Source: Mesorhizobium sp. B2-7-2
Lineage (GTDB): Bacteria; Pseudomonadota; Alphaproteobacteria; Rhizobiales; Rhizobiaceae
Direction: 5' to 3'
Assembly (NCBI RefSeq): GCF_006440775.1
Contig: NZ_VFTZ01000002.1
Location: 62,001-126,000 of the forward strand
DNA: 64,000 nucleotides
Shown here: in pieces, positions 5,764 to 51,454 of the stretch
Numbering within the stretch: the first letter of the stretch is position 1
Layout: the number at the start of each line of letters is the position of its first letter
Notes under the pieces: model-generated
Told to the model about the DNA's origin: nothing
Databases searched by the model: none
The model's input: the letters and a program-made list of their open reading frames with translations, nothing else
Program-made: the position numbers and the translations under genes

Positions 5764-5985
5764 CGTCGTCATTCTAGGGCGGAGCAAGGAGCGAAGCGAC
5801 GCGCGCAGACCCTAGAATCCATGCCGTGACGCGTGAGCGCCGCAACGGTCCAAAAGTCGCTTTGCATTGAGGTAGGCGTCTCGGAAAGGCATTTTATTCT
5901 CGACCGCGGCACTATTCGGCCGGCGTAACGGAATGGATCCTAGGGTCTGCGCGCCGCTTCGCGTCGCTCCGCCCTAGGATGACGA
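5764..5985. repeat. Family A palindromic intergenic element, copy 1
   Basis: This lies in the 316-base gap 5699-6014. The left arm 5766-5830 begins CGTCATTCTAGGGCGGAGCA and the right arm 5921-5984 is its imperfect inverted copy ending CTAGGATGACG. The roughly 90-base centre contains CAACGGTCCAAAA, a motif also seen in the other copies. The first 64 bases of the left arm are identical to those of the copy at 50888. No open reading frame of note lies inside. Confidence 0.9.
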
Positions 5986-50843: not shown

Positions 50844-50883
50844 GCGTCACGTTCGCGCTGCCCCTCAAGGCCCGCGACCCATC

Positions 50884-51399
50884 CCTTCGTCATTCTAGGG
50901 CGGAGCAAGGAGCGAAGCGACGCGCGCAGACCCTAGAATCCATGCCGTGACATCGGTCGTAGAATGCCAATGGTCCAGAATAGCCGCTAATGGCTGCGCC
51001 AGCTAAGATCGCTCCATGACCGGCTATGTCTACATGACCGCAAGCCAGAAAGGCGGCACGATCTATATCGGTGTCACCAACGACCTTGCTCGCCGGATGC
51101 CGGAGCACAAGACTGGCCAAGGCTCCAGCTTCACCAGCCGCTACGGTGTGCAGCGTCTGGTCTGGTACGAGGAGTATTTCGATATCGCCGATGCCATTCA
51201 GCGTGAGACGTCATTGAAGCGCTGGCCACGACGATGGAAGGTCGAGCTGATCGAGAAGAGCAATCCTGAATGGTTCGAGCTCTTTCGTGGAATTGGCTGG
51301 TGGGCGTTCTAAACCGTGGCGGCTCTCAACCGTCACGGCATGGATTCTAGGGTCTGCGCGCGTCGCTTCGCTCCTTGCTCCGCCCTAGAATGACGAAGG
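50884..51399. mobile_element. Candidate cassette: GIY-YIG gene inside family A inverted repeats (copy 3)
   Basis: Arms 50888-50951 and 51332-51395 are a perfect 64-bp inverted repeat, extended by four more matching bases outside. The left arm is identical to that of copy 1 at 5766. After the left arm the normal family A centre starts (AATGGTCCAGAAT) and is then replaced by a complete GIY-YIG gene. I see no target-site duplication that I can be sure of. Confidence 0.6.
51016..51312 (+). CDS. GIY-YIG nuclease family protein (COG2827-like)
   Basis: 98-aa single-domain GIY-YIG protein. The two namesake strands are GYVYMTAS and TIYIGVTNDLARR, the latter with the catalytic Arg. A helix carries EEYFDIADAIQRETSLKRW with the metal-binding Glu, and the end KVELIEKSNPEWFEL matches the small stand-alone family. 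All motif residues are intact, so it may be active. It lies between perfect inverted copies of a dispersed intergenic repeat, which suggests the nuclease and the repeat move or are maintained together. Other stand-alone members have no known role. Confidence 0.9.
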   Translation: MTGYVYMTASQKGGTIYIGVTNDLARRMPEHKTGQGSSFTSRYGVQRLVWYEEYFDIADAIQRETSLKRWPRRWKVELIEKSNPEWFELFRGIGWWAF

Positions 51400-51454
51400 A
51401 TACGCCGGCAGGCAGATGAGGGGCAGCGCCGCGATCAGCAATTGGCGCGACAGC

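Follow-up and report, generated by a model that had tools for sequence, protein, structure and literature searches.

A stand-alone GIY-YIG nuclease gene and two inverted CGTC-tagged REP arms form, in our reading, one dispersed unit in Mesorhizobium sp. B2-7-2, likely spreading CGTC REPs by predicted nicking of hairpins and copying by the host (probability of about two in three). The unit lies at 50884-51399 of the window, the 64-kb stretch of DNA analysed here, from a genome of 6.37 Mb in 61 contigs. It is likely REPtron-like, CGTC REPs being mobilised by a GIY-YIG nuclease and not by an HUH transposase.

The unit consists of a perfect 68-bp inverted repeat around an intact 98-aa gene (Table 1). 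In the initial annotation, the arms had been described as exact inverted copies of 64 bp; the exactness stands, while the length falls short, the 64 bp being the part from CGTC to GTGAC. The same annotation placed a further exact copy of the arm at 5766, and a search with a 65-bp arm core agrees: the window holds three matches with up to three mismatches permitted, all of them exact (5766, 50887, and 51332), against none in 100 shuffles. Copies from the same genome stop aligning at CTTCGTC and GACGAAG. Folded as an ssDNA hairpin, the left arm does no better than its shuffles (energy z -0.31), and the hairpin is thus not exceptional. The window copy is itself enclosed by inverted pieces of another repeat, at 50850-50880 and 51405-51435 (GCGCTGCCCCTCA ... 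TGAGGGGCAGCGC).

Table 1. Features of the unit and of a related gene-less dimer, in window positions except where contig positions are indicated.
Feature	Position	Strand	Basis
Whole unit, CTTCGTC ... GACGAAG: GIY-YIG gene enclosed by a pair of inverted CGTC-tagged REP arms	50885-51398	+	alignment of copies, unrelated flanks
Left arm: tag 50888-50891, stem 50892-50900, 30-nt loop 50901-50930, stem 50931-50939, CCA tail 50940-50942	50884-50951	+	68-bp inverted repeat; ssDNA hairpin
Left subterminal segment AGAATGCCAATGGTCCAGAATAG, resembling the centre of short gene-less copies	50952-51015	+	read by eye
GIY-YIG (UPF0213-like) nuclease gene, stand-alone, 98 aa	51016-51312	+	ORF, PF01541, conserved residues, structure matches
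Right subterminal segment ACCGTGGC..., resembling the centre of short copies; the preceding TTCTAA holds the stop codon	51313-51331	+	read by eye
Right arm, identical to the left arm in inverted orientation; minus-strand CGTC tag at 51392-51395	51332-51399	-	inverted repeat, core search
Gene-less REP dimer of the same family	5766-5985	+	left arm equals 50887-50951 over 65 bp; right arm 5925-5985 diverged
The same dimer in contig coordinates	arms 67766-67830 and 67925-67985		

From the outside inward, each arm reads TT-CGTC, a stem ATTCTAGGG, a 30-nt loop, the returning stem CCCTAGAAT, and a CCA tail. Judged by this sequence, the arms are CGTC-tagged REPs. Two REP superfamilies are distinguished in the available part of Di Nocera et al. 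2013 (PMC3733652): GTAG REPs, paired with RAYT transposases, and CGTC REPs, which carry a CGTC tag, a stem starting with AT, and mostly a CCA tail, form dimers, and are commonest in Alphaproteobacteria. The arms share with the latter an unpaired CGTC (or TGTC) tag at one end of the stem-loop, an 8-9-bp stem starting with AT, the CCA tail, and a high copy number with dimers in opposite orientation (242 pattern matches, many of the listed arms being paired). The tag is 98-100% conserved in the alignment of elements, though the detector itself demanded GTC. They depart from it by their loop, which in Mesorhizobium measures 30 nt instead of the usual 4-5 nt; other lengths are allowed for Bradyrhizobium CGTC-1 and two others in the same part of that article. 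In the B2-7-2 genome, these long-loop arms form mixed dimers with short-loop CGTC REPs, and in many other genera the REPs flanking the gene are short-looped. Recognising the arms as CGTC-tagged REPs, a step absent from the initial annotation, ties the case to a published open question: according to the available part of PMC3733652, CGTC REPs "apparently lack a dedicated transposase", other transposases sought beside them yielded only a few fortuitous associations, and the term GIY-YIG does not occur there.

The encoded protein matches PF01541 with an E-value of 3.5e-16 (59.7 bits, cut-off 22.6), and the gene is intact, as first described. Residues Y6, Y17, R27, H31, E64, and N83, which we take to be the catalytic positions of the GIY-YIG domain, are each retained in at least 71 of 72 intact copies. 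This set and the domain score place it in the GIY-YIG superfamily, as a UPF0213-like member. Its sequence matches UPF0213 structures and its predicted fold is close to UPF0213 and Slx1 (PDB 1zg2, 6sei); Slx1, among the nearest folds, is a branched-DNA nuclease, and I-TevI is also found among the fold neighbours. At the 80 named loci of the genus (see below), 72 genes are open across 94 codons. Of 2,556 pairs, 1,994 passed filtering, and their median dN/dS of 0.065 shows strong purifying selection on the protein. Within 51295-51312, the window copy carries TGG in place of the TGA found in sister copies, which adds three C-terminal residues.

The four PF01541 matches of the B2-7-2 genome comprise three small genes and a domain in a 753-aa frame, which is probably UvrC. 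All three small genes lie between inverted arms. The three full elements are mutually 89-93% identical, and their flanks of ~300 bp are dissimilar (best local scores 7-10). At a fourth locus (C5:161132-161507), both arms are intact around an eroded gene, a deletion intermediate that supports the earlier suggestion of empty copies deriving from a master element. The arm pattern CGTCAT-N(18-46)-ATCCATNCCG has 242 matches in the genome and its reversed control none; these are pattern matches, of which a few in other genomes look coding. A separate arm search of the same genome gave at least 62 matches, with 40 of 186 candidates scored. Where gene-less dimers can be resolved, their centres span 48-101 bp, slightly wider than the 60-95 bases first given. 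By eye, both ends of these centres resemble the subterminal segments of the gene-bearing unit, and the gene copy keeps remnants of the centre on its left (AGAATGC..GGTCCAGAA) and right (TTCT..ACCGTNGC); the initial annotation had seen only the first bases retained. In several short copies, left and right remnants join in a small palindrome, and several have a continuous palindromic centre around AGAATTCT. Several gene-less dimers of this genome (within L013-L034) are nested in a second palindrome (GGAGATTGGCC ... GGCCAATCTCC).

The genus sample comprises 119 genomes, of which 73 have the protein; a single genome yields as many as 11 matches when fragments are counted. The best 80 of 136 loci (the named loci: mostly Mesorhizobium, some Aminobacter, and one Oryzicola) were inspected for arms. 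An inverted repeat scoring at least 30 within 350 bp on each side is present at 72 of them, 71 control windows reaching 15 at most; among the 72, the scores of L119 and L120 are inflated by N runs, and L146, L152, and L154 have REPs in another orientation or a compound repeat. The eight loci devoid of it are L097 and L158, truncated by contig ends, and L124, L150, L160, L166, L173, and L174. Under the strict REP test, both sides carry REPs with clean flanks at 67 of 83 loci. At L103, L105, L111, L161, and L162, the inverted repeat runs on into the outer flanks, as if the unit were centred in another palindrome. The count of GIY-YIG genes between arms called for in the initial annotation thus comes out in favour of the pairing, both in the B2-7-2 genome (3/3) and at the named loci (72/80). 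That annotation had named genes standing free of arms, with no enrichment near them, as the adverse outcome; the association found instead extends outside the genus, and also outside its order and class, where the CGTC palindromes are different ones.

A stem 9-mer is common to both arms in 54 of 63 units (24.3 expected), mean arm identity is 96% within units and 92% between them, and arm similarity correlates with gene similarity (Mantel rho 0.34, p 0.001). A unit's own right arm is the closest (top 5%) to its left arm in only 8/63 cases. Over the 119 genomes, REP count and gene count correlate (Spearman 0.52, p 1.7e-9, a statistic that ignores phylogeny), and the median number of REPs is 48 in the 73 genomes with the gene against 20 in the 46 without it.

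Beyond the genus, the protein occurs in 179 of the 297 genomes of an order sample. Loci from other genera of the order number 104, of which 24 were returned by the search and 80 picked from the best listed places, so that the sample favours stronger matches. An inverted repeat scoring at least 18 is found at 58/104 of these loci, compared with 0/199 windows placed distally at the same loci; for a strict CGTC REP pair with outward tags, the counts are 45/104 and 2/199. At least one side carries a strict REP in 78/104 and neither side in 26/104, the pair test being failed by 59/104. The REPs beside the gene differ from genus to genus. Around cold-shock (csp) genes of the same order, taken as a control, REPs occur on both sides in 0/49 and on one side in 2/49 (of 50 fetched, one was dropped for insufficient length, and 20 came from genomes that also belong to the gene sample). 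In other orders of the class, loci picked from the best listed places show an outward REP pair in 6/19 and an inverted repeat of at least 18 in 14/19; for other classes of the phylum, picked in the same way, the figures are 9/25 and 8/25. The arm-gene association is seen across the phylum, at roughly four in ten of the proteobacterial loci examined outside the genus. Eight distant GIY-YIG paralogues (31-41% identity) have no strict REP, and one of them has an inverted repeat (score 32). In 12 genomes of the order, one short-loop REP pattern gives 0-49 matches each (0 in G159 and 1 in one other) and its reversed version none.

Several arrangements are observed at individual loci. REPs stand on both sides of the gene in Rhizobium CIAT894, Neorhizobium, Shinella HZN7, Azospirillum lipoferum 4B, and Aeromonas caviae. 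In Sinorhizobium meliloti Ak57 and Shinella PSBB067, an inverted pair is present, but one of its members does not pass the strict test; the inverted pair of Sphingobium and Novosphingobium has a different tail. Photobacterium has REPs on one side, and in Sinorhizobium C101 an inverted pair of CCTC-tagged hairpins is arranged differently. The Rhizobium tumorigenes and Planktothrix gene copies have REPs on neither side. Regular, BIME-like tandem arrays of CGTC REP dimers adjoin the gene in Rhizobium CIAT894 (L207, period ~271 bp) and Photobacterium GJ3 (L214). In Neisseria gonorrhoeae (L202, NZ_CP119140.1), dRS3-like CGTC repeats flank a GIY-YIG gene 133 bp before and 238 bp after it, on the same strand. 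That record and two others from PLSDB (NZ_AP026896.1 and CP090106.1) are labelled as plasmids, yet their length or genes look chromosomal.

In the proposed mechanism, the arm hairpins would be nicked by the nuclease, with the CGTC tag as the probable cut site, after which the replication and repair machinery of the host would place a copy of the arm-bounded DNA elsewhere. GIY-YIG enzymes hydrolyse DNA and, to our knowledge, have no strand-joining activity, which would leave this step to the host. REP dimers without the gene would be derivatives mobilised in trans, in the way RAYTs are believed to move REPINs. REPtrons (RAYT or TnpA_REP, with GTAG REPs and REPINs) are alike in several respects: inverted hairpin repeats, marked by a constant tetranucleotide tag, enclose a single small nuclease gene; dimers lacking the gene are numerous in the genome; and no target duplication is seen. 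They differ by their GTAG tag, CGTC in the unit, and by their HUH tyrosine transposase, where the unit has the GIY-YIG fold of a predicted hydrolytic nuclease. Inverted REPs around the gene and gene-less dimers elsewhere are thus found as in a REPtron; the defining Y1 transposase is absent, the gene being of PF01541 and PF01797 having no match in the B2-7-2 genome, and the unit would therefore work like a REPtron without being a member. Points counted against this explanation are the order loci failing the pair test, the REP-free gene copies of Rhizobium tumorigenes and Planktothrix, REP-rich genomes with no gene detected, the neglect of phylogeny in the REP-gene correlation, the 8/63 arm pairing, the paralogue with an inverted repeat, the loop length, the unexceptional folding energy, and the lack of a target-site duplication or exact empty site, described next.

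The insertion history was read at several loci. At the window locus, the flanking genes are 1 to 1,295 bp apart in 29 relatives (the loci returned, of 118), and none of these 29 carries the gene or a strict CGTC REP. In Azospirillum lipoferum 4B, the unit sits between sufB and sufC; in A. ramasamyi, A. oryzae, B510, and A. thermophilum, all four read, these genes are separated by 55-129 bp with no unit and no strict REP. REPs and gene are missing together at two loci, which speaks for arrival as a whole unit. Beside glmS in Mesorhizobium (30 loci read; 118 genomes matching), the state of the unit varies with the genome: it may be present, decayed, or inverted, may be reduced to a single hairpin, or may be missing. 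No target-site duplication emerged when words of 2-9 bp were compared at offsets 0-11 across 68 elements (the largest excess, for a 2-bp word, was 13 where 6.1 were expected), nor was a base-exact empty site found among the loci compared.

Some of these loci have features of their own. The gene lies between sufB and sufC in both Shinella PSBB067 (L216) and Azospirillum lipoferum 4B (L206), which belong to different orders; this coincidence reflects either repeated insertion at one spot or a shared history. Single hairpins with a CGTC-type tag at both ends occur beside glmS in G062 (L435, by script) and G011 (L428, by eye), and at the gltA-lpxB locus of Sinorhizobium K101 (L220, by eye). They look like a left tag joined to a right hairpin, and could be an excision scar, a pre-insertion target, or the product of slippage between stem halves, which are direct repeats. 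Double-tagged single hairpins occur near csp genes too. Two other loci beside glmS (L429 in G091, L430 in G026) have the gene turned around with respect to the right flank, an outcome that recombination between two inverted arms would be expected to give.

GIY-YIG homing endonucleases are well known, and the nuclease could be one that cuts pre-existing CGTC REP dimers, its gene being copied into the break; the REPs would then be the target and not the cargo. The catalytic domain is the same, presence among sites is patchy, I-TevI is a fold neighbour, the continuous palindromic centre of short copies could have received the gene, and K101 has its single hairpin where S. meliloti carries the unit at gltA-lpxB. 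We consider this explanation unlikely. Relatives at the window and sufB-sufC loci are devoid of REPs as well as of the gene, the eroded gene at C5:161132-161507 lies between intact arms, and the matching stems of both arms fit spread as a unit. Unlike homing genes of the I-TevI type, the unit encodes a stand-alone domain of 95-98 aa, with no intron seen, and is bounded by inverted palindromes that at two loci are missing with it in relatives.

It is somewhat less probable still that another transposase or replication slippage spreads the REPs, which would merely attract or carry the gene. REPs are known insertion sites of some IS elements (available part of PMC1525189), Di Nocera et al. suggest that several transposases could move CGTC REPs (available part of PMC3733652), and genomes may be REP-rich with no gene detected (107 pattern matches in G040, 89 in G025, and 85 in G062). 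Such a passenger would hardly form a single gene family that accompanies a variety of CGTC palindromes in different genera, orders, and classes, nor be under strong purifying selection; the fortuitous character of the transposase associations quoted above from PMC3733652 also argues against it, as does the lack of PF01797 matches in the B2-7-2 genome (the Y1 family alone was searched, and the same search is positive in 5 of 14 control genomes). That the protein is a Slx1-like structure-specific host repair enzyme, processing REP cruciforms and kept for genome maintenance, is very improbable, despite its Slx1 and UPF0213 fold neighbours and conserved catalytic residues, since its patchy presence, its up to 11 matches in one genome, its broken copies, and its shifting positions set it apart from a housekeeping gene, and its distant paralogues have no strict REPs.

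The unit of gene and arms also differs from other known systems. UPF0213 (YhbQ-YazA) and Slx1 nucleases share its domain and predicted fold, and we know of no description of them as repeat-bounded. Insertion sequences with MITEs resemble it by their terminal inverted repeats and internally deleted derivatives; in contrast, GIY-YIG is the sole gene seen in the unit, and no target-site duplication was found in the 68 elements.

No link between GIY-YIG genes and REPs was found among the papers listed from the open-access PMC literature (preprints and subscription papers being outside this scope); the initial annotation, too, knew of no described GIY-YIG/palindrome pair. The main text of a 2025 REP survey (PMC12306157), in its available part, mentions neither GIY nor transposase, and a clade-gene table in the available part of PMC9465073 has RAYT and a GIY-YIG gene as separate, unlinked entries.

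Repetitive palindromes are common repeats of bacterial genomes, and CGTC, one of their two large superfamilies, had no candidate enzyme in 2013, according to the available part of PMC3733652. On balance, the stand-alone GIY-YIG nuclease seems a good candidate for the missing dedicated mobiliser of this superfamily, and it would define a class of minimal elements without a transposase, present in several classes of Proteobacteria and converging on the RAYT/GTAG-REP system. With a specific protein of 95-98 aa now tied to CGTC REPs, the question can be put to the test with a single purified protein and short oligonucleotides. Should the proposal hold, a nuclease fold known from homing and repair would be the independent origin of a REP-type mobile element that does without the chemistry of a transposase.
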